Shown here: piece by piece, positions 29,287-43,885 of the stretch | How the letters are laid out: every line of letters starts with the position of its first letter | Numbering within the stretch: position 1 is the stretch's first letter | DNA from: Candidatus Eremiobacteraceae bacterium | GTDB lineage: Bacteria > Vulcanimicrobiota > Vulcanimicrobiia > Eremiobacterales > Eremiobacteraceae | Reading direction: 5' to 3' | DNA: 61,799 bases | Assembly: GCA_035314825.1 (NCBI GenBank) | Contig: DATFYX010000089.1 | Location: forward strand, 1 to 61,799 | Notes under the pieces: generated by a model | What the model was told of the DNA's origin: nothing | Database searches by the model: none | Seen by the model: only the letters and a program-made list of their open reading frames with translations | Made by a program: the position numbers and the translations under genes

Positions 29287-30102
29287 CTACGAGCCGGTGC
29301 TTTGGTGGTGGTCAAGGCCGCGGCGCCAGAACAGATACGCGGCCCCGAACCACAGCGCGCCGATGACCGGCGTGAGCCACCCGAACAACGGGTTGACCGA
29401 GTACTGGCCTTCGGACGTCTTGTGCAGCAGCGTCGCGGCCGGGAAATAGTTGATGAACGCGAACGGGAACACGAACGATAGCGTGAAGCGCACGATGCGG
29501 TTGTAGATCGACAACGGATAGCGTGTGAAGTCCGTCTCGAGCGACATCACCACCCAGCGCAGCGTGTCCAGCCGAATGACCCAGAAGGCGAGCGTCGCGA
29601 CCGTCAGCTGGATCGCGAAGTCGATGAACGCTCCGCCGACCATCGCGCCGAGCAGCAATCCGGCGGTGGCCCCGGTCCACTGCAAGTGAGCGACGCCTTG
29701 CACGATCGCGAAGAAGATGATGGCCACGATCAGCTCGTCGGGCCAGATCTGCCCGGGCTGTGAGATCACCTGGAAGAGCGGATCGAGCGGGCGCACCAAG
29801 AAGCGATCGAACCGGCCTTCGCGGATGTGGTACGGCACGTCCCCGATAGAGAAGAACAGCGTGCCGTTGAGCGACGACGCGAGCCAGAAAAGCGAGTACA
29901 AGAACACGACCTGCTGCCACGTCCAGCCGTTCATGATCGGGAAGCGGTTCATCGTGAGCCAGATGGTCGCGATCGCCGAACCGTGCAGCACGAGCGTGAA
30001 GACCAGCCAGACGAAGAAGTTCGCCCGGTATTCCGCCAACGTGAGGAAATTGAGCCGCCAGAATTCGGCATAGGTGCGCCAGTACGGCGCGAGGCTAGCC
30101 AC
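29287..30102 (-). CDS. ABC-2 family permease (second of two)
   Basis: 271 aa with about six membrane helices, of the ABC-2/DUF990 permease type that pairs with one ATPase and another permease. The signature DVPYHIREGRFDRFLVRPLDPLFQVI is shared with its partner gene. GTG start at 30102 overlaps the end of the upstream permease by 8 bp. Exported substrate unknown. It is the last gene of the ATPase-Kelch-permease-permease operon. Confidence 0.85.
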   Translation of the reverse strand: MASLAPYWRTYAEFWRLNFLTLAEYRANFFVWLVFTLVLHGSAIATIWLTMNRFPIMNGWTWQQVVFLYSLFWLASSLNGTLFFSIGDVPYHIREGRFDRFLVRPLDPLFQVISQPGQIWPDELIVAIIFFAIVQGVAHLQWTGATAGLLLGAMVGGAFIDFAIQLTVATLAFWVIRLDTLRWVVMSLETDFTRYPLSIYNRIVRFTLSFVFPFAFINYFPAATLLHKTSEGQYSVNPLFGWLTPVIGALWFGAAYLFWRRGLDHHQSTGS

Positions 30103-30904
30103 CCTGCACCACCACGCGCCGTTCGCCGACCCGCCACAGCGCGAGCGCGCCGACGGCGAACACAGCCACCCAGAACAGCTGCAGCTCGAGCGTCGCGGCA
30201 AGCTCCGGCCCTTGGTACTTGCCGAGATAGATCGTCAGCGGCGCGCTATAGATGGCCGCGAACGGCGACAAGGTCGCGATTTTGGTCACCGCGGACGGGA
30301 AGAACTGCAGCGGCACGACCGCGCCGGCCAGCAGCGAGGTGATGAACTGCACCATGAGCTGGAAGCCGAATATCTCCATCGTCCAAAACGTGATCGTCGC
30401 CATCAGCAAGTCCAGGAAGAAATTCACCAGGAAGCCGAGCATGACCGAGATCACAAAGGCGAGCGCGATCAACGGCGAAGCCGGCAGGCTCAGGTGCGTG
30501 CCCGTCAGCGCCAGCAGGCCGATCGCGATCGGAAGTGAGATGGCGATCTGCAGGAGCGCGAAGCCGGCCTGACCGAGCGTGTCGGCGAACACGTAGAGCG
30601 GCACGCTGATCGGCCGCATGAGATCGATCGCGATGCTGCCCTCGCGGATCTTCTCACGCACCACATAGGGGCCTTGCGCGTTGTAGATCAGACCGATCAG
30701 AAGCGCGAGCGTCGCATACGTGATGATGTCGCGGAACGAGAAATCTTGCTTCGGGCCGTTGTTCGCGTACAGCGCGCTCCACAGCGCGTAGTAGAGGTAG
30801 ACGCGCAGCGCCACCGAGCCGATATGCGTGAACACCTCTTCGCGATAGGTAGCCTCTCGCGAGAAAGCGCGCTTCGCGAACTCGACATACGCGCCCCAGG
30901 CCAT
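30095..30904 (-). CDS. ABC-2 family permease (first of two)
   Basis: 269 aa, six or so membrane helices, ABC-2/DUF990 type. The conserved loop VVREKIREGSIAIDLMRPISVPLYVF matches the same region of the next gene, showing a duplicated pair forming the heterodimeric channel. The ATG overlaps the stop of the Kelch gene by one base (TAATG), so translation is coupled. It is preceded by the ATPase and Kelch genes. Confidence 0.85.
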   Translation of the reverse strand: MAWGAYVEFAKRAFSREATYREEVFTHIGSVALRVYLYYALWSALYANNGPKQDFSFRDIITYATLALLIGLIYNAQGPYVVREKIREGSIAIDLMRPISVPLYVFADTLGQAGFALLQIAISLPIAIGLLALTGTHLSLPASPLIALAFVISVMLGFLVNFFLDLLMATITFWTMEIFGFQLMVQFITSLLAGAVVPLQFFPSAVTKIATLSPFAAIYSAPLTIYLGKYQGPELAATLELQLFWVAVFAVGALALWRVGERRVVVQGG

Positions 30905-32085
30905 TAGTGCGGCGCGTGCCCCTTGAATTGGACCTGCGTGACCGGGCTGACGAAGCGCAGCACCGACGTCAGCGGCGACGTGCCCGAATATGGCGAGCCG
31001 CCGATGACCCAGATCTGATTGCCGAGCGCCGCGACCGCCATGCCGTGCCGCGGGAACGGAAGCCACGGACCGCTGATCCAGCCGCGCGCGTCGGTGCTCG
31101 AGATCTCCGTCGTCTGCGTGATCGTGCGATTGATGTCGAACGTGAGCGTGGACGGGTCGAGCGTCGCAACGGCGTTATTATTCTCGCGGCCGATTGCCAT
31201 CGTGGTCACGGATAGCTCGGACGACGAGGCAGCGTAATTCTCGCCGCCGATCGCCATGAGCCGGTTGTTGACCGACGCGAGGCCGAAATCGGCCCGCCCG
31301 AGACGCATGTTCGTGCACGACCGCCAGCGATCGCGCGCCGGGTCGTAGACATCGCACGATTGCAAGCTGACCTGGTCGCGGTTGCGGCCGCCGACGAGGT
31401 AGATCAGGCCATCGAGGACGACCGATCCGGCCATGTAGCGCTCTTCGCCAAGCGCGTACTCCTCAGTGCGCCAGGAATTCTTGGCGACGTCGAAGATCAT
31501 CATGCTCGTGTCGTCGTTGCCGTGCGACGATTGGCCGCCGAAGAGATAGAGCTTGCCGTTGACCGCCTGCAGCATCGGCGCGTAGCGCGGAAACGGCATG
31601 GACGGCAGCTCGGTCCATGCGTCGCCGATCGGATCGTAGCGCCAGAACTTGTTCGTGACGAGATCTTCGATCCGGCCGCCGGCGACGTAGAGATAGCCGC
31701 CCATGCCCGCCGCGGCCGCATTATCGACCGGCTCCGGCATCGTGGCCGCCTCGCGCCATTCGCCCGGACGCGATACGATCGGCCCGGCGACGTTGGGATT
31801 GGCCACGGGCGAGGGGAACGTCGGCTCGAACACGAGCAGCGTCGCCATCTGCTTGTCGTGCGGCCCGAAGCCGCCCGCGAGGTAGATGCGTCCGTCCATG
31901 ACCGCGACCGCGGCGTCCTGGCGCGCCGACGGCAGGTCGGGCCCGCGCACCCACACGCCTTTGTTAAGATCGACGACCACGCCGGTGTCGGAACCGACTT
32001 CAGCCGCGCCCGACGCGGGCAACGCCGCCGCGACGGCGAGCGCGGCGCTCAGCACGAGCGCGCGCGCGAACTGCGACGACATCAT
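30904..32085 (-). CDS. Exported Kelch-repeat beta-propeller protein
   Basis: 393 aa. A signal peptide (ALVLSAALAVAAALPASGAAE) is followed by five to six Kelch repeats with the usual GG pairs: IYLAGGFGP, YLYVAGGRIE, LYLFGGQSS, IYLVGGRNR, RLMAIGGEN, IWVIGGSPYS. Kelch propellers bind proteins or sugars. Its start overlaps the ATPase stop (ATGA) and its stop overlaps the permease start, so it is embedded in the exporter operon and is likely its periplasmic partner or cargo. No family member with a known role was recognised. Confidence 0.85.
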   Translation of the reverse strand: MMSSQFARALVLSAALAVAAALPASGAAEVGSDTGVVVDLNKGVWVRGPDLPSARQDAAVAVMDGRIYLAGGFGPHDKQMATLLVFEPTFPSPVANPNVAGPIVSRPGEWREAATMPEPVDNAAAAGMGGYLYVAGGRIEDLVTNKFWRYDPIGDAWTELPSMPFPRYAPMLQAVNGKLYLFGGQSSHGNDDTSMMIFDVAKNSWRTEEYALGEERYMAGSVVLDGLIYLVGGRNRDQVSLQSCDVYDPARDRWRSCTNMRLGRADFGLASVNNRLMAIGGENYAASSSELSVTTMAIGRENNNAVATLDPSTLTFDINRTITQTTEISSTDARGWISGPWLPFPRHGMAVAALGNQIWVIGGSPYSGTSPLTSVLRFVSPVTQVQFKGHAPH

Positions 32086-33134
32086 GGCACGACCTCCAGG
32101 CCTGCCACCGCGTGCGCACCGTCGACCGATGCGGCGCCGTCGAGCGATCCGATGCCATGTTGGTAGATGTCGCGGATGATCGATTCCAGCGGCGGTTCGG
32201 CAATGGTCACATCTTTGATCTCGTAATGCTTGGCCAGCAGCACCACGAGCTCGTCGGCGCGCACGGCATCGCGGTTGAATTCGATGACGATGCGCGGCCC
32301 CTCGCGCGAAACGATCTTCGCGCCCGGCATCGCAAGATCGATGTCATCGCAGTTCTCGCAGGCGAGGTCCGCGGTGAGCGTCCGCTCGCGCCCGTAGCGC
32401 TGCTTGATGTGCTCGATGCTGCCGTCGTAGAGCTTGCGGCCGTGGTCGATGAGGATGATGCGCGCGCACAGCTTTTCGATGTCGGCCAGATCGTGCGTGG
32501 TCAAGATGACCGTGGTGCCGCGGTCGCGATTGATGCGCGCGATGAATTGGCGGATGTTCTCTTTGGCGACGACGTCGAGCCCGATCGTCGGCTCGTCCAA
32601 GAACACGACTTTGGGCTCGTGCAGCATCGCCGCCGCGAAATCGCCGCGCATCCGCTGACCGAGGCTGAGCTGGCGCACCGGCGTGCGGATGAACTCGTCG
32701 AGGCCGAGCAGGTCGGTGAACTCTTTGAGGTTGCGTTGGTACATCGCCGCGGGGACGTTATAGATCGCTCGCAGTAGTTGGAACGATTCGATCAACGGCA
32801 GATCCCAATACAGCTGCGTGCGCTGGCCGAAGACCACGCCGATCTGGCGGCCGTTGGCTTGGCGGTCAGCCCAGGGCACGATGCCGTTGACGGTGCACGA
32901 GCCGCTCGACGGCACGAGGATGCCGGTCAGCATCTTGATAGTGGTGGATTTGCCCGCGCCGTTGGGTCCGATGTAGCCGACCAATTCGCCGGCCTCGAGC
33001 TCGAAGCTGACGTCGCGTACGGCGTCTTTGACGTCGTAATCACGCGAGAACAGCGTGGCGAGCGCGCCGAGCGCGCCCTCTTTGCGCCTCAGGGTTCGGA
33101 ACTGTTTGGTGAGTCGATCGGCGCGGATCATCAT
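32082..33134 (-). CDS. ABC-2 transporter ATP-binding protein
   Basis: 350 aa. Walker A YIGPNGAGKSTT, Q-loop IGVVFGQRTQLYW, signature LSLGQRMRGDF (the family variant), Walker B VVFLDEPTIGLD, and H-loop ILTTHDLADIE. The C-terminal third is an extra domain with ADLACENCDDID. The start is the first of two ATGs (MMIRAD) at 33134, and longer frames would overlap the divergent gene's control region. First gene of the exporter operon with the Kelch protein and two permeases. Direction is export, as is usual for ABC-2; the cargo may be a glycan or lipid. Confidence 0.88.
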   Translation of the reverse strand: MMIRADRLTKQFRTLRRKEGALGALATLFSRDYDVKDAVRDVSFELEAGELVGYIGPNGAGKSTTIKMLTGILVPSSGSCTVNGIVPWADRQANGRQIGVVFGQRTQLYWDLPLIESFQLLRAIYNVPAAMYQRNLKEFTDLLGLDEFIRTPVRQLSLGQRMRGDFAAAMLHEPKVVFLDEPTIGLDVVAKENIRQFIARINRDRGTTVILTTHDLADIEKLCARIILIDHGRKLYDGSIEHIKQRYGRERTLTADLACENCDDIDLAMPGAKIVSREGPRIVIEFNRDAVRADELVVLLAKHYEIKDVTIAEPPLESIIRDIYQHGIGSLDGAASVDGAHAVAGLEVVP

Positions 33135-33199: not shown

Positions 33200-33610
33200 T
33201 TGGCTCAGGCACCGGATGTCGCGACCGATCGCGTCTTCGTCTACGGCTTGCTGAAACGCGGTTTCGGTTTGCATCACCACATGGCGCAGGGGACGTTCGT
33301 CGGCGATGCGACGGCCGCGGGGGCGCTCTACTCGCTCGGCGAGTATCCAGCCATGGTCGACGGTGAAGGCGCCGTACGCGGCGAGCTCTATCGCTTCGAC
33401 GTCATAGCCGTCGCATTGGAGCTGCTCGACGAAGTCGAGGAGTACGATCCGCTCGATCCCGAGGGCAGCCCGTACCTTCGTGCAGTCAGGCCCATCACGC
33501 TGCGCTCGGACGGCGCGGTCGTGCCGGCGTGGTGCTATCTCTATAATCGAAGCGTCAAGGGCATGACGCGCATCGCGTCGGGCGAGTGGCGCGGCTCTAA
33601 GCCGTCGTGA
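33200..33610 (+). CDS. Gamma-glutamylcyclotransferase-like protein (AIG2 fold)
   Basis: 136 aa. YGLLKRG (YGxLxxG substrate loop) is at about residues 14-20, and the catalytic Glu sits in LDEVEEYDP. Such proteins cyclise gamma-glutamyl amines or peptides to 5-oxoproline. TTG start at 33200 is preceded by GGAGGG at normal spacing; an upstream GTG at 33167 is possible but has no site. It is a single gene. Confidence 0.8.
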   Translation: MAQAPDVATDRVFVYGLLKRGFGLHHHMAQGTFVGDATAAGALYSLGEYPAMVDGEGAVRGELYRFDVIAVALELLDEVEEYDPLDPEGSPYLRAVRPITLRSDGAVVPAWCYLYNRSVKGMTRIASGEWRGSKPS

Positions 33611-34498: not shown

Positions 34499-35785
34499 CT
34501 ATCCGCTTTTCCGCTCGGGCAGCTTGACCTGCACCGTGTCACGTGAGAACAGCAGATCGAGCGTCCAGTCGATAGCCACGCGGATCTTGCGCTCGAGCGT
34601 CGGGATGCGGAACAGGTAGTAGGTCCGCCACAGCCACCACGCCGGGAATCCGGAGATCTTCAGCCCGCCGAGCATCACCACGGCTTGGCGCTCTCCCAAA
34701 TGCGCCATCTGGCCGACCGTCGTGTAGGCGAAGGGGCGCAACGGTTTGCCGTCGATCGCGGCCATCACGTTGCGGGCGACGTGCAAACCCTCGCGCAACG
34801 CGTGTTGGGCGGTCGGCGGATATGGCGCGCCGCCGCCGGGCGGCGTCACCACCGCGCTGTCGCCGACGCACCACACGCCCGGATAGCCAGGCACGGCGAG
34901 ATCGGCGTCTACCGGCACGCGGCCGCGCTCGTTCGCGCATGGCAACCCCGCGACCAACGGGTTGGCCGACACGCCGCCTGCCCAGACGAAGACCTGGGTG
35001 TCCAGACGCGTGCCGTCGGCCAGCGTCACGCCGGCCGCATCTGCCGATTTCACGCCGACGCCCAGCCGGAACCGAACGCCGCGTTTCTCGAGCGCGCGCT
35101 GCGTCCACCGGCCCAGCTCATCGGACAGCTCGGGCAAGATGCTCGTTCGCACGTCGACGACGACGGTGGTGATCTCCGACGGCTTGACGTTCCGGTACAT
35201 CTTCGCCGCGGTGCGCATGAACAGATCCAGCTCTGCAGCGGTCTCGATGCCGGCGAAACCGCCGCCCGCCACGACGAAGGTCAACAGCCGCTTGCGGACG
35301 TCCGGATCATCTTCGAGCTCGGCTTGCTCGAGCATGTCGATCGCCCGGTTGCGCAGCACCACCGCATCGGCCAGCGTTCGTATGGTGAGCGCATGCTCGG
35401 CGACGCCGGGCAGACCGAAGTAATTCGTCTCCCCGCCGACCGCGATGATGAGCTGGTCCCAGTCCACATCGTGCGGGTGTCCGTCGCCGTGCGTGATCGT
35501 CACGCGGTGCGCCGCCAGGTCGATCGAATCGATCTCGGCTTCGAGCACGCGCACGCGCGGCAGGATGCGGCGCAAGTTGACGACGATGTGATGCGTGTCG
35601 ATGCTGCTGGTCGCCGCCTGCGGCAGCATGGGCGTGAACAAGAAGAAGTTCTCACGCGCGACGAGCGTGATGTCGACGTCGCTGCGATGGCGCACCGCCT
35701 TTTGCAACGCCATCGCGGCATAGACGCCGCCGAATCCTCCGCCGAGGATGACGATGCGCTGGACGGTGCGCGGCGTGTCGGGCAT
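34499..35785 (-). CDS. ndh: Type II NADH dehydrogenase (NDH-2)
   Basis: About 428 aa flavoprotein passing electrons from NADH to quinone without pumping protons. FAD site ILGGGFGGVYAAM, NADH site VVAGGGFAGIETAAEL, and the later FAD motif VWCVGDSAV are present. ATG at 35785 was chosen because GAGG lies upstream; starts up to 42 bases earlier exist. The C-terminal region (WWLWRTYYLFRIPTLERKIRVAIDW) is the amphipathic membrane-binding part. A single gene, divergent from the phosphoesterase gene. Confidence 0.92.
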   Translation of the reverse strand: MPDTPRTVQRIVILGGGFGGVYAAMALQKAVRHRSDVDITLVARENFFLFTPMLPQAATSSIDTHHIVVNLRRILPRVRVLEAEIDSIDLAAHRVTITHGDGHPHDVDWDQLIIAVGGETNYFGLPGVAEHALTIRTLADAVVLRNRAIDMLEQAELEDDPDVRKRLLTFVVAGGGFAGIETAAELDLFMRTAAKMYRNVKPSEITTVVVDVRTSILPELSDELGRWTQRALEKRGVRFRLGVGVKSADAAGVTLADGTRLDTQVFVWAGGVSANPLVAGLPCANERGRVPVDADLAVPGYPGVWCVGDSAVVTPPGGGAPYPPTAQHALREGLHVARNVMAAIDGKPLRPFAYTTVGQMAHLGERQAVVMLGGLKISGFPAWWLWRTYYLFRIPTLERKIRVAIDWTLDLLFSRDTVQVKLPERKSG

Positions 35786-35884
35786 CGCAGTCCTCGTTCG
35801 CACGGCAGGCATCGTCCCCTGCGCCACAAAAAGCTAGCGCTCGAACGCTTGTTACTTTCGCACGGCGCTAACACGAGGTTTCCG

Positions 35885-38209
35885 ATGGTTGTCCGCACGC
35901 AGCGCATCGGGCTCGCGGTTCTCGCGGTCGCCCTGCTCTGTTTCGCCTCACCGCCCCATGCGCCGCGCGCGGCCGATGTCACCGCGCTGCCCAATGGCTG
36001 GCGCGTGACGCCCTCGGGTTCATCGATCCTGCCTCTCGGCACGTTGCCGCTGCGCATCGTCCAGGACACGTCCGGGCGCTGGCTGGCCGTCTCCAACGCC
36101 GGCTTCGGCGACCTTTCGATCGCTATCGTCAGTCAGGACACCGGCAAGATCGTCGACCAGCGGCCCATCAACGGCACGTTTTACGGTCTTGCCTTCTCGC
36201 CGAACGGCGACGCGTTGTACGCCTCCACGGCGGCCGGCGGCGGCGTCGACCGGTTCAGCTTCGACGCCTCGACCGGAAAACTCGGCGACTCGACCTTCTA
36301 CCGTCTAGGCGCCGGCAAGATCTGGATCAACGGACTCGCCCTCTCGCTGGACGGCTCGACCGTCTATGCCGCGGTTTCGGGCGCGAACAGCCTCGTCGCC
36401 GTCAATGCGCTGAGCGGCGCGACGATCTTCGCGACCGACGTGGGTAGCACGCCCTATGACGTGACGCTGTCGCCGAGCGGCGCGCGCATCTACGTGTCGG
36501 ACTGGGGCGGCGCGTCGGTCAGCGTCGTCGACTCCGCGAACGGCGCGAAAGTCAGGACCATCGCCACCGATAGTCATCCGGGTGCGCTGCTGTTCGGCGC
36601 GGACGGGCGGACGCTGTACGTCGCCTGCGCCAACGATGACGTCGTCGACGTGATCGACACCGCGACGGACAAGCTGCGCGGCAAGATCGACGTCGCGCTG
36701 TATCCCGGTTCGCCGGAAGGCGCGACGCCCAGCTCGCTCGCGCTGTCGGCTGACGGACGCACGCTGTTCGTCGCCGACGCCGACTCGAACGCCGTCGTCG
36801 CGGTCGACATCACCGGCACGGCGCCGCTCGTCTACGGGGCGGTGCCGGTCGGCTGGTATCCGACCGGCATCGCCATGAGCAAAGACGGCAAGCGCCTGTA
36901 CGCGCTTGACGGAAAAGGACTTTCGGGCCACGCCAACCCCGACGATCAGCACAGCTCGATCACGCCGGCCGCACAGCGCACGTCCACGAACTACGCGCCG
37001 AACACCGCGACCGGTGACATGGAGACGATCACGTCGCTGTCGCGCAGCGCGCTGGTCGGCGGCCTCGCGATCGCGCGCGCGAATTCGCCGTTCAAACCGT
37101 CGCCCGCTGCGCCGGGGGCGCTGCCGCCCTTCAAGCACGTCATCTACGTCATCAAAGAGAACCGCACGTATGACGAAGTGCTCGGCGACGACACGCGCGG
37201 CAACGGCCAGGCGTCGCTCGCCGTGTTCGGTCAGCGCGTCACGCCCAACATCCACCGCTTGGCGGACGAGTTCGTGCTGCTCGACGCCTTTGAGGGCGAG
37301 GGCACCGTCAGCGCCGACGGCCATGAGTGGGCCGACGGTGCATACGCCGATGACTTCGTCCAGCGCATGTGGCCCGCCGATTACGCCGGCCGCGCCGACG
37401 GCTTCTACGATTTCTCCGATCCGATCTTGCGGCCGAGCGCAGGCTACATCTGGGATGTCGCCGTCAAACACGGCGTCAGCGTCAGGCTCTACGGCGAAGG
37501 CGCGGTCGAGGCCAGCTCGCCGGCGCGCGGGGTGAACCCGTCTATCGATCCGCTGCTCGATACCGCCTACCGGCCCTTCGACCTGACGTACTCGGACCAG
37601 GATCGGATCGTCGAGTGGCTGCGCGAGTTCCGCCAGTTCGAGGCCGCGGGCGATCTGCCGCAGCTCGAATTGGTGTGGCTACCGAGCGATCACACGGCGG
37701 GCATGAAGGCGGGCTCGCGCACGCCGTATGCGATGATCGCCGACAACGACTACGCACTGGGCCGCATGGTGGAGGCGCTCAGCCACAGCCGTTACTGGAA
37801 GGACACGCTGCTCGTGAGCATCGAGGACGATGCCCAGGCGGGTCCCGATCACGTCAGCAACCAACGCGTCGAAGCGCTCGCCGTCAGCGCGTACGTCAAT
37901 CGCGGGCAAGTGGACCACACCCACTACACGACATCAAGCGTGCTGCGCACGATCGAGCTCGTCTTCGGCTTGCCGCCGATGAGCCAGTTCGACGCCGGTG
38001 CCACACCGCTGAACGCGGTGTTCACCTCGACGCCGGATCTGCGCGTCTGGCGTGCGACGCAGCCGAACATCAGCATCACCGCGGTCAATCCGGCGGGCGG
38101 TCCGGGCGCGCAGGCATCTGCGAAGTTGGACCTGCGCTCGGCCGACGCGGCTGACCCGGCTGAGTTCAACCGGATCCTCGCGACCTACCTCAAAACCGTC
38201 CACATGTAG
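35885..38209 (+). CDS. Exported beta-propeller plus phosphoesterase fusion
   Basis: 774 aa. After a signal peptide (AVLAVALLCFASPP) comes a YncE-like seven-bladed propeller (repeats such as AVSNAGFGDLS, LALSLDGSTVYAA, LFGADGRTLYVAC), and from about residue 410 a phosphoesterase/phospholipase C-like domain: HVIYVIKENRTYDEVLGDD, a metal site typical of the acid phosphatase/PLC superfamily, SADGHEWADG, and LVWLPSDHT with further ligands. The ATG at 35885 starts the signal peptide; the frame stays open upstream only because it shadows ndh. It ends in a decayed CGGTCGA palindrome. Probably acts on phosphoesters outside the membrane. Confidence 0.85.
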   Translation: MVVRTQRIGLAVLAVALLCFASPPHAPRAADVTALPNGWRVTPSGSSILPLGTLPLRIVQDTSGRWLAVSNAGFGDLSIAIVSQDTGKIVDQRPINGTFYGLAFSPNGDALYASTAAGGGVDRFSFDASTGKLGDSTFYRLGAGKIWINGLALSLDGSTVYAAVSGANSLVAVNALSGATIFATDVGSTPYDVTLSPSGARIYVSDWGGASVSVVDSANGAKVRTIATDSHPGALLFGADGRTLYVACANDDVVDVIDTATDKLRGKIDVALYPGSPEGATPSSLALSADGRTLFVADADSNAVVAVDITGTAPLVYGAVPVGWYPTGIAMSKDGKRLYALDGKGLSGHANPDDQHSSITPAAQRTSTNYAPNTATGDMETITSLSRSALVGGLAIARANSPFKPSPAAPGALPPFKHVIYVIKENRTYDEVLGDDTRGNGQASLAVFGQRVTPNIHRLADEFVLLDAFEGEGTVSADGHEWADGAYADDFVQRMWPADYAGRADGFYDFSDPILRPSAGYIWDVAVKHGVSVRLYGEGAVEASSPARGVNPSIDPLLDTAYRPFDLTYSDQDRIVEWLREFRQFEAAGDLPQLELVWLPSDHTAGMKAGSRTPYAMIADNDYALGRMVEALSHSRYWKDTLLVSIEDDAQAGPDHVSNQRVEALAVSAYVNRGQVDHTHYTTSSVLRTIELVFGLPPMSQFDAGATPLNAVFTSTPDLRVWRATQPNISITAVNPAGGPGAQASAKLDLRSADAADPAEFNRILATYLKTVHM

Positions 38210-40371: not shown

Positions 40372-43300
40372 CAAGTCTGCACAACCTGTCATGCTCCGTT
40401 TCGAGGAAGGCGTCGCTCCCGACCGAGGGGGTCCACCGCTTGGAGCCTGGCAAGCGAACATACCCACGCAAGCCTCCATCGAAGGCACGTTTCCGAAGAC
40501 GATCATCGCCCAAGGATTAGCCGCATTTCAACGCGGCAAGGTGCGCAGCCTGAACTTGCGGCGCAACGACGTCGTAGGCACCGTCGCCGATACCGAGACG
40601 CACACCACCACGCTCACGCGCGACCCGTCGCGCCTGCCGCTCGGCATGCGCTGCAACTGCACGTGTCGCTACGGCTACGACTGCAAGCACGCGGTCGCCG
40701 CGCTGTACACGCTCATCGAGCTCTCCACGCGCGATACCGAGCCGCCGCCCCCCGCGCCGGCCACGCCGGTGACCGGCAACGGCCATGCGACGGCCGGCAA
40801 CGGCAAGAGCACTGCGAACGGCGAGCAGCGCACGAACGGCTCCGCAAGCGTCGTCACGCCGGCCGCGCCCGAACTGCTCGATCTGCTCACCCCGCACCAC
40901 GAGAGCGTGGTGCCGCGCAGGCGCCTGTGGATCGTCGCCGGCTTCGACGACCGGCTGGGCGTTTTTTACGCCCGGCTCTGTTTAGACGCGCCCAAGCTGC
41001 ACGGCGTGCCGCGCACGCACGGCGATCTGCAGCAGCTGTATCGCACGACCCGCCAAGCGAATCTCACCGGCGAGGAGTGGGATCGCCACGATGCCGCGCT
41101 GCTTGCCGACGCGACGTTAGGCTCGATGTTCGGCACGCCAGCCGACTACGCGCTCGCCCGCGCGACGAGCGAGCAGACCAAAGCGCTGACCAACAATTTC
41201 GCGCAGCTGCTGCTGCGCTTGATCTCTCACCCGCGCGTCCGCTACGACGACCACTTGGGCGCCCACCCTGAAGCGATGCCGCCGGTCAAGATCGTGCTGG
41301 CTCCGTTGCACCTGCGGCTGTCCGGCACACGCGGCGAGCAGGGCGATCTCGATCTCTCGGGCGTCTTCGTGCGGCCCGACGGCACGACCGTCGACGTAGC
41401 CGCGGTGCGTCCGATCGACGGCACGCCCGCGTGGCTTTTCGATGGCGGCACGTTCTATCTGCACGACGGCAGCTTCAGCCTGCGCATCGTCGAGCGCCTA
41501 TCGGCCTCGGGCAGCGTGCACATCGCGTCGGACGAGATCCCGTTGTTCTTAGAGCGCGCGCACGGATTCCTCGATCGCGGCACGGCTGGCGCGCTCATGG
41601 TCCTGCCCGACGATATGGCGCTTCAGACGCTGATGCGGCTGCGCTGGCAAGGCGACGGCATCACGGTCGAGCCATCGATAGAAGACGCGCGCAGCGGTGC
41701 GAACTGGCGCGTGACGCCGCAAGATTTCAATCCGCTGCAGCGCGTGGACAGCGGCAAGAAAGGCGCCGAGGCGCGCTATGCCTACTGCAATCCGGCGTTG
41801 GCGCAGCGCTTGCGCGCGCGCATCGAAGGCGCCGGCTGCGCACCTGCGCACGACGTGTACGAGAAGCTCGCGGCGCAGCGGCCTGACGAAACCGTGCCGC
41901 AGTACGACGAGACGAGCTGGCGCATCGAACCGGTCGACGCCGCGTATCAGTTCGGCACCGAGACGCTGCCCGCGTGGCGCGCGGACTACCAGCTCGACAT
42001 GGACGACACGGTCAAGTCGCTGGTCGAAGGACCAAAGGTCCTACAAGTATCGGTCACGGTCGACGGCGACGAGAAACCGGCGCAAAAGGCCAAAGGGGCG
42101 AAGGGCGCCGCGAGCCTCTTCGGTCCGATCGATTGGCTCGAGATATCGGTCGAGCTGCTGCTCGACGGACAAAAGCTCACGGCAGACGACATCAAAGCGC
42201 TGTGGCAGAGCACGGGGCGCTACCACCGTCTCTCGGATGGCCAATTCATCGACTTATCCTCGTTCGCGCTGCTGCGCGAAGCGACCGGCGGATTCGGCGG
42301 CGGCCTCGAGCGCGGCGGCAAGACGCGGCTCACCGCGGCGCAGATGCTTTCGGTCTACGACGATCTCGCCAAAGCGTGCGGCGACTCCGAGCTTCCCGAG
42401 CAGCTGCGCGCGTTGCGCGAAGCGGTGCGCGGCTTCTCCGGCATCGAGGAGTGCGAGCCGCCCAAACATCTCGCCAAGATCTTGCGCCCCTATCAGCGCC
42501 GCGGCCTCGATTTCCTGGCCTATCTCGGGCACTACGCGTTCGGCGGCATCTTGGCCGACGACATGGGACTCGGCAAGACGCTGCAAGTGCTGGCGTACCT
42601 CGAGCGCGAGCGGCAGCGGCGCGGCAGCGCGCCCAGCCTCATCGTCTGCCCGACGTCGGTGACGCACACCTGGGTCGGCGAAGTCGCTCGTTTCACCCCG
42701 CAGCTCAAGGTGCAGCTGCTGTCCGCCGGGGCCGGACGCGAAGACGTCTACGCCGCCGCCGCCGACTACGATCTGCTGGTCACGTCGTACGCGCTGGCGC
42801 GGCGCGATGCGGAGAGCCTCGCGAAGATCACGTTCCGCACCGTCGTGCTCGACGAAGCGCAGCAGATCAAGAACCCCCAGGCGAAGATCTCGCAGGTCAT
42901 CAAGTCGCTCAACGCCGAGCAGCGGCTCGCGCTCACCGGCACCCCGATCGAGAACTCGGTGCTCGACCTATGGTCGATCATGGATTTCGTCATGCCTGGG
43001 CTGCTCGGCAACGAAAGCCACTTCCGCGCCACGTTCGAAACGCCGATCATGCGCGACGGCGACGTGGAGAAGCAGCAGCGTCTGGCCAAGCGCGTCCAGC
43101 CGTTCATGATCAGGCGGCTCAAGACGCAGGTCGCGGCGGATCTGCCGTCGCGCACCGAGCAGACGATCGAGTGCGAGATGACGCCGTCGCAGCGCAAGGC
43201 GTACAAAGAAGTCGTGCTGCGCGCGCGGCGCGAGATCATGCGCGAAGTCGACGAGCACGGCATCGGCCGCGCCCAGCTTTCCATTCTCGCCGCTCTCACG

Positions 43301-43885
43301 AAGCTGCGCCAGATCTGCAATCATCCGGGCCTCGTCGGCGAGCACTGGCGCGAGGACGAGGATGCGTCGGGCAAGTTCACCGCCTTCACCGAGCTGGTCG
43401 ATTCGATCGTCGATTCCGGCCACCGCGTGCTCGTGTTCTCTTCGTTCACCGAGATGCTCGGCATCATGCGCGAGGCGTTCGACGCACGCAACCGCGCGTA
43501 CGCGTACCTGGACGGCTCGACCAAGAATCGCGCCAAGGTGCTTGAGGACTTCAAACGCGAGGACGGTCCGCCGGTCTTCTTGATGAGCCTCAAGGCGGGC
43601 GGCGTCGGGCTCACCGTGACCGAAGCGGATTATGTCGTGCTCTACGATCCGTGGTGGAACCCGGCGATCGAGCGCCAGGCCATCGATCGCACGCATCGCA
43701 TCGGTCAGACCAAGCCTGTGACGGCATACCGGCTGGTGACGATCGGCTCGGTCGAGCAGAAGATCCAAGCACTCCAACAACGCAAGCAGGCGCTTGCCGA
43801 TTCGGTCATCTCAAGCGACGCGGCCTTCGCCAAGAGCTTGACGCGCGAAGACCTAGACGAGCTCTTCTCCGCCGTCACCGACTAG
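40352..43885 (+). CDS. SWIM-domain SNF2-family helicase/ATPase (HepA-like)
   Basis: 1177 aa. A SWIM zinc finger (CNCTC...CKH, residues 101-113) is followed by a long poorly conserved region with Ala/Thr/Gly linker (about 125-170), then the two RecA-like lobes of the SNF2/HepA family: GILADDMGLGKTLQVLAYL (motif I), VVLDEAQQIKNPQAK (motif II, DEAQ in place of DEAH), ALTGTPIENSVLDLW, and MSLKAGGVGLTVTEADYVVLYDPWWNPAIERQAIDRTHRIGQ (motifs V-VI, quoted in parts). Probably a DNA translocase that remodels nucleoprotein. It ends directly next to the decarboxylase TTG. Confidence 0.9.
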   Translation: MAVRAASKSAQPVMLRFEEGVAPDRGGPPLGAWQANIPTQASIEGTFPKTIIAQGLAAFQRGKVRSLNLRRNDVVGTVADTETHTTTLTRDPSRLPLGMRCNCTCRYGYDCKHAVAALYTLIELSTRDTEPPPPAPATPVTGNGHATAGNGKSTANGEQRTNGSASVVTPAAPELLDLLTPHHESVVPRRRLWIVAGFDDRLGVFYARLCLDAPKLHGVPRTHGDLQQLYRTTRQANLTGEEWDRHDAALLADATLGSMFGTPADYALARATSEQTKALTNNFAQLLLRLISHPRVRYDDHLGAHPEAMPPVKIVLAPLHLRLSGTRGEQGDLDLSGVFVRPDGTTVDVAAVRPIDGTPAWLFDGGTFYLHDGSFSLRIVERLSASGSVHIASDEIPLFLERAHGFLDRGTAGALMVLPDDMALQTLMRLRWQGDGITVEPSIEDARSGANWRVTPQDFNPLQRVDSGKKGAEARYAYCNPALAQRLRARIEGAGCAPAHDVYEKLAAQRPDETVPQYDETSWRIEPVDAAYQFGTETLPAWRADYQLDMDDTVKSLVEGPKVLQVSVTVDGDEKPAQKAKGAKGAASLFGPIDWLEISVELLLDGQKLTADDIKALWQSTGRYHRLSDGQFIDLSSFALLREATGGFGGGLERGGKTRLTAAQMLSVYDDLAKACGDSELPEQLRALREAVRGFSGIEECEPPKHLAKILRPYQRRGLDFLAYLGHYAFGGILADDMGLGKTLQVLAYLERERQRRGSAPSLIVCPTSVTHTWVGEVARFTPQLKVQLLSAGAGREDVYAAAADYDLLVTSYALARRDAESLAKITFRTVVLDEAQQIKNPQAKISQVIKSLNAEQRLALTGTPIENSVLDLWSIMDFVMPGLLGNESHFRATFETPIMRDGDVEKQQRLAKRVQPFMIRRLKTQVAADLPSRTEQTIECEMTPSQRKAYKEVVLRARREIMREVDEHGIGRAQLSILAALTKLRQICNHPGLVGEHWREDEDASGKFTAFTELVDSIVDSGHRVLVFSSFTEMLGIMREAFDARNRAYAYLDGSTKNRAKVLEDFKREDGPPVFLMSLKAGGVGLTVTEADYVVLYDPWWNPAIERQAIDRTHRIGQTKPVTAYRLVTIGSVEQKIQALQQRKQALADSVISSDAAFAKSLTREDLDELFSAVTD

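Follow-up and report, generated by a model that had tools for sequence, protein, structure and literature searches.

The analysed window, i.e. the whole stretch of 61,799 nucleotides, carries a putative small-molecule exporter operon of the DUF990/EVE type in which a gene for a predicted exported Kelch propeller lies between the ATPase gene and the first of two permease genes. We consider the chances to be evenly balanced that the Kelch protein is a periplasmic accessory of this exporter, co-expressed with it, not essential to it, likely lineage-specific and not part of the pump core. Descriptions of ABC-2 exporters usually include no more than ATPase and permease; a propeller that is conserved, co-translated and exported hints at an outside partner in the little-known DUF990 family.

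Architecture of the operon

The four genes are located on the reverse strand of a genome of 2.55 Mb in 89 contigs, assigned to Eremiobacterota. The gene called as ABC ATPase (32082..33134) matched Pfam ABC_tran with 88 bits and NCBIfam drrA with 208 bits, below the 312-bit cut-off of the latter, and its product is EvrA-like by context and DrrA-type by sequence. Its start was placed at the ATG at 33134, upstream of which the open frame extends to a GTG at 33212. The Kelch gene (30904..32085) encodes 393 amino acids matching Pfam Kelch_1 with 162.6 bits. Permease 1 (30095..30904) and permease 2 (29287..30102) scored 89.3 and 131.2 bits, respectively, against a cut-off of 22 for PF06182 (ABC2_membrane_6), which we take to be the former DUF990. 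With two such permeases above cut-off and an ABC ATPase in the same operon, the pump core conforms to the DUF990/EVE family.

The stop of the ATPase gene and the start of the Kelch gene overlap by four bases (ATGA, 32082..32085), the Kelch stop and the permease 1 start share one base (TAATG with a common A, 30904..30904), and the two permease genes overlap by eight bases (30095..30102); gene starts assigned by the gene caller are guesses. The first-pass annotation had described an exported Kelch propeller embedded in the exporter operon, with overlaps of one to four bases on both sides of its gene. This description is borne out by the overlaps themselves, the Kelch_1 match, an export-like N-terminus judged by eye and the adjoining PF06182 permeases. 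The range given for it (30904-33134) spans the ATPase and Kelch genes, but both permeases (30904-30095 and 30102-29287) fall outside. The four genes may be carried on one mRNA with coupled translation. A scan for regulatory signals found no promoter-like site (shuffled mean 0.6) and four terminator-like sites (shuffled mean 3.0).

Conservation within the order

The order consists of one family of 14 genomes in this genome collection. PF06182 permeases were found in 13 of them and a Kelch orthologue in 12, i.e. in 12 of the 13 genomes with the permeases, at identities of 44-93%. In all 12 (the window and 11 relatives) the Kelch gene is located between the ATPase and permease 1 genes on the same strand, and an in-frame start giving the four-base overlap with the ATPase gene is available. 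As called, the starts of the 11 relatives gave this overlap in six, an overlap of one base in G011 and internal starts in four; Kelch starts were moved to the upstream in-frame start at the four-base overlap in G003, G004, G007 and G013, and that of G011 was taken one codon upstream. The distance between the Kelch and permease 1 genes, by called starts, was -4 to +2 bases in 10 of the 12, the others being G007 (24 bases) and G001 (68 bases). The eight-base overlap between the permease genes was present in nine of the ten Kelch-bearing operons in which both were measurable; in G003 the contig breaks off within permease 1. In G010, permease 2 is encoded about 17 kb downstream, while ATPase, Kelch and permease 1 remain together. 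Both the constant order with its possible coupling and the integrity of this trio favour an accessory of the exporter.

The same is suggested by the copy number of the orthologue, which is single in each of the 12 genomes (G011 has a second, distant match of 113 bits), although the Kelch match rows per genome of the order vary from 2 to 33, the one or two rows of the orthologue itself included. The highest numbers, 33, 16 and 13, were observed in G011, G004 and G013, which belong to one genus; other genomes of the family had eight at most.

Two observations weaken the case. Gene order is conserved for the neighbours as well in this family, so the shared location of Kelch and exporter genes is partly general synteny. 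Additionally, G008, from the same order, has the exporter without Kelch: its ATPase and permease 1 genes overlap directly by four bases, and no Kelch match was found in its genome at E 1e-5. In the remaining genome, G002 (72% complete), both permeases and Kelch are lacking.

Occupants of the position behind the ATPase gene

Across 149 genomes of the phylum, with up to 13 candidates scored per genome, the 12 orthologues obtained 418-691 bits, whereas no other Kelch protein exceeded 146 bits, the best score in the 135 genomes outside the order. This clean gap again speaks for an accessory of this exporter. PF06182 was present in 55 of 61 genomes (own genome included), of which 13 belong to the order and 42 to sister families. 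Weak Kelch matches occurred in nine sister genomes, and the few sharing a contig with a PF06182 gene are more than 400 kb away from it.

Sixty loci around PF06182 genes, the window not among them, were read, their genes called and the content upstream of permease 1 tabulated. Five loci had no permease 1, and the other 55 contained 56 permease 1 genes. These were preceded by ATPase and Kelch (11), ATPase and a hexapeptide-repeat protein (26), ATPase and hexapeptide protein plus two more genes (1), the hexapeptide protein without a full ATPase (3, in G047 owing to a contig end that cuts the ATPase) or the ATPase directly (10, i.e. G008 and nine in sister families); one was a second permease 1 copy behind another pair, and four had no uninterrupted same-strand ATPase. 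A protein unrelated to Kelch thus fills the same position at 30 sister-family loci (e.g. L085:7351-8121, reverse strand). BLAST clustering under a lenient joining rule defined its family, and Pfam Hexapep was assigned in the two members examined. By eye, it resembles gamma-carbonic anhydrases, presumably without their usual metal-binding histidines. Within the order, a hexapeptide query returned only matches of 30-37% identity, in 13 of the 14 genomes, with no clear orthologue; on these grounds, a relocation of the hexapeptide gene elsewhere in the order was rejected.

This distribution can also be explained by a permissive second operon position, the Kelch protein being exported and binding its ligand independently of the pump, with the operon serving only to set its expression level. 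Such a passenger, to which we assign a lower though still considerable likelihood, is consistent with the variation of occupants by lineage (Kelch at 11 loci and in the window, the hexapeptide protein at 30, none at ten including G008). It also agrees with the four-base overlap at the end of the ATPase gene, which arises irrespective of the next gene: it is present in 25 of 26 clean ATPase-hexapeptide-permease 1 loci and in nine of the ten direct ATPase-permease 1 loci. The hexapeptide protein may likewise use the operon for expression level only. No apparent signal peptide was seen in the eight of the 30 hexapeptide proteins that were viewed, so that occupying this position need not mean being part of the transporter. 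However, 12 of 13 operons have kept the Kelch gene, with the potential for coupling unchanged even where identity falls to 44%, and more frequent loss would be expected of a neutral passenger.

Another possibility, which appears doubtful, is that the gene following the ATPase marks an evolutionary exchange position, where a lineage-specific, beta-rich accessory translated with the pump adapts the same core to another compound or export route. The accessories would then be the periplasmic Kelch propeller here and the hexapeptide beta-helix in sister families. The pattern of presence and absence (12 operons with Kelch, G008 without it and sister families with another gene) offers a ready comparison for the function of the partner.

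The exporter core in other phyla

Outside the phylum, the survey covered plasmid records. Permease 2 as query matched 19 records, 13 of which were examined, two of these being unannotated. In all of the 11 annotated operons, from Deinococcus, Gloeothece, Sinorhizobium (two), Chlorohelix, Streptomyces (two), Tsukamurella, Bradyrhizobium, Streptobacillus and Rhizobium, the ATPase gene adjoins the two permease genes, with no inserted gene and no Kelch; in Tsukamurella the ATPase comes last. The core operon is therefore widespread and the Kelch gene looks like an addition of one order. In other words, a three-gene small-molecule exporter composed of an ATPase and two different permeases may have gained a fourth, co-translated gene there. 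Some plasmid operons are flanked by genes for roseoflavin synthesis (rosB), a phosphopantetheine-binding protein or a glycosyltransferase, which is consistent with small-molecule export. The survey of orthologous operons proposed in the first-pass annotation gave a divided outcome: within the order, 12 of 13 operons include the Kelch gene, and it is absent from G008 and from the operons examined outside, which argues against a core part of the pump.

Predicted structure of the Kelch protein

Residues 1 to about 27 of the window protein are hydrophobic and resemble a signal peptide by eye. The N-termini of the relatives are also signal-peptide-like by eye, though variable, that of G011 being without early positive charge. 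In several relatives the N-terminus is followed by a Pro/Ala/Ser/Thr-rich linker of varying length, which makes a tethered form possible.

The AlphaFold2 model built from four input sequences reached a mean pLDDT of 72.5 and a pTM of 0.73, and the other four models scored 47.5-57.2. Our reading of its strand list gave six four-strand sheets. Compared with Kelch domains of the PDB, the model yielded Z-scores up to 35.1 (rmsd 2.2 over 275 residues, NS1-BP). The protein is accordingly modelled as a six-bladed propeller, its repeats closing the ring. An insert of about 35 residues (286-322), of low model confidence, has its full length in the window protein only, about half of it in G001, and is short or absent in other relatives.

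With the signature GG and R residues left out, the DA and BC loops, on one face, were better conserved than the AB and CD loops on the other (mean 0.75 vs 0.61), the loop classes having been assigned by our own reading of the model's strands. The contrast gave a Mann-Whitney p of 1.9e-5, or 0.025 without the insert at 87-107. In Keap1-type Kelch domains, ligand sites sit in loops of the corresponding face. The higher conservation of one loop face, which may be general to Kelch domains, adds to the case for an accessory. The protein would be exported via Sec to the periplasm, where the better-conserved face could bind either the compound leaving the permeases or an envelope partner receiving it. 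It would thus serve as an optional receiver or retention factor and lend export more directionality, and pump turnover would proceed without it. A periplasm is likely, since Eremiobacterota, including a cultured member, are reported to possess an outer membrane in the available parts of two sources (PMC9758169, PMC6664022); this location also favours the accessory function.

Neither the Kelch protein nor either permease matched PADLOC profiles at E 0.001, and an anti-phage role was rejected. The ATPase matched ATPase parts of PADLOC systems (best mad3, 85 bits), as expected of ABC ATPases.

Test for correlated evolution of Kelch and exporter

Pairwise distances of the Kelch protein correlated with those of the two permeases at r 0.79 and 0.82. 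Two neighbours used as controls gave 0.85 (thioesterase) and 0.30 (an NADH-dehydrogenase-like protein, one copy of which is truncated). The excess over the lower control favours an accessory, while the thioesterase value weakens it and suits an independent passenger, as the Kelch protein tracks this neighbour as well as it tracks the permeases. Since the thioesterase matches the permeases and the low control holds a truncated copy, these correlations do not establish co-evolution.

Private changes in the permeases of G008 numbered two and two, against 0-4 and 0-6 in other genomes (G003, truncated, left out for permease 1); its ATPase had five, the highest count, tied with the Kelch-bearing G010. 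Coupled evolution of Kelch and permeases was rejected on both grounds, i.e. values lying between the controls and G008 permeases free of excess changes, the latter also counting against an accessory. The Kelch protein evolves faster as well (mean identity 53% vs 68-73% for ATPase and permeases), which points the same way. The role of periplasmic substrate handler put forward in the first-pass annotation is therefore one that we infer, given correlations intermediate between the two controls.

Comparison with known systems

The ethyl viologen exporter (EVE, DUF990) family, TCDB 3.A.1.141, includes EvrA/EvrC of Synechocystis, and likewise combines an ATPase and two permeases of the family in one operon; the characterised members named in the available part of the source export ethyl viologen (PMC5417439). 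The window operon differs in its Kelch gene from the 11 annotated plasmid operons. For the link to envelope glycans raised in the first-pass annotation, nothing pointing in this direction was found, ethyl viologen being the compound named for the family in that same part of the source (PMC5417439). A glycan handler was rejected on the basis of the four neighbours scanned against Pfam (a gamma-glutamyl-cyclotransferase-like protein, DUF5069, a beta-eliminating lyase and an HTH-methyltransferase), which include no carbohydrate gene.

A beta-propeller gene inside an ABC-transporter operon has a precedent in PedA1A2BC of Pseudomonas putida, where PedA2 is a YVTN propeller whose function is not known; according to the available part of the source, this system differs by its YVTN repeats, its single permease gene with a substrate-binding protein and its link to PQQ-dependent dehydrogenases and lanthanides (PMC6839425). 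The window ATPase scored 144.3 bits for TIGR03864 against a cut-off of 302, and the Kelch protein had no TIGR03866 match at E 0.001. Another precedent, NosD, docks on NosFY as a beta-helix and is not a propeller. In denitrifiers this accessory protein is encoded with the ABC transporter NosFY, as here, but it serves NosZ copper-site assembly, as far as the available part of the source describes (PMC7558416). The Pfam matches of our Kelch protein at E 0.001 were to Kelch-type and propeller families only. Both precedents support an accessory function.

NanM/YjhT is an exported periplasmic six-bladed Kelch propeller with mutarotase activity and, to our knowledge, is not encoded with an exporter. 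By analogy, the Kelch protein could be an enzyme acting on the exported compound, e.g. a mutarotase or epimerase, which we regard as improbable. It did resemble mutarotase families weakly (TIGR03548, 54 bits; TIGR03547, 46.3 bits; PRK14131, 51 bits), and Pfam NANM reached 53.5 bits, above the cut-off of 45, though its best stretch covered 125 of 350 positions. However, all three NCBIfam cut-offs (243-416 bits; 256 for TIGR03547) were missed by far, and scores of this size would be expected between Kelch repeats in general. NanM was not among the 50 matches listed in the fold comparison, which says nothing either way on likeness to NanM.

Returning to an accessory of the exporter, such a protein beside an ABC exporter is a known kind of arrangement, and the combination of a Kelch protein with a DUF990 exporter is new as far as our searches show. 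No publication on a Kelch gene in an ABC-2/DUF990 exporter operon was found in the open-licence literature searched. The unfamiliarity claimed in the first-pass annotation accordingly stands for Kelch with DUF990 exporters; for propellers in ABC operons in general, PedA2 came before, as the available part of its source indicates (PMC6839425).

Neighbouring genes in the window

A gamma-glutamyl-cyclotransferase-like gene (33200-33610, forward strand) is divergent from the operon, and six other genomes of the order carry a relative of this gene close to theirs. A forward-strand frame at 34700-38209, a few kb away from the exporter genes, combines a YVTN/lactonase-type beta-propeller with a phosphoesterase domain in one fusion protein. 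Translation probably begins near 35.9 kb, because the earlier portion of this frame is antisense to an NADH-dehydrogenase-like gene (34499-35827, labelled by eye). An SNF2 helicase with a SWIM finger is encoded at 40391-43885 (forward strand). In a defence-profile scan of this helicase and the next gene, its C-terminal half matched DpdE and ZorD profiles, and the gene that follows gave weak SspA/DndA matches.
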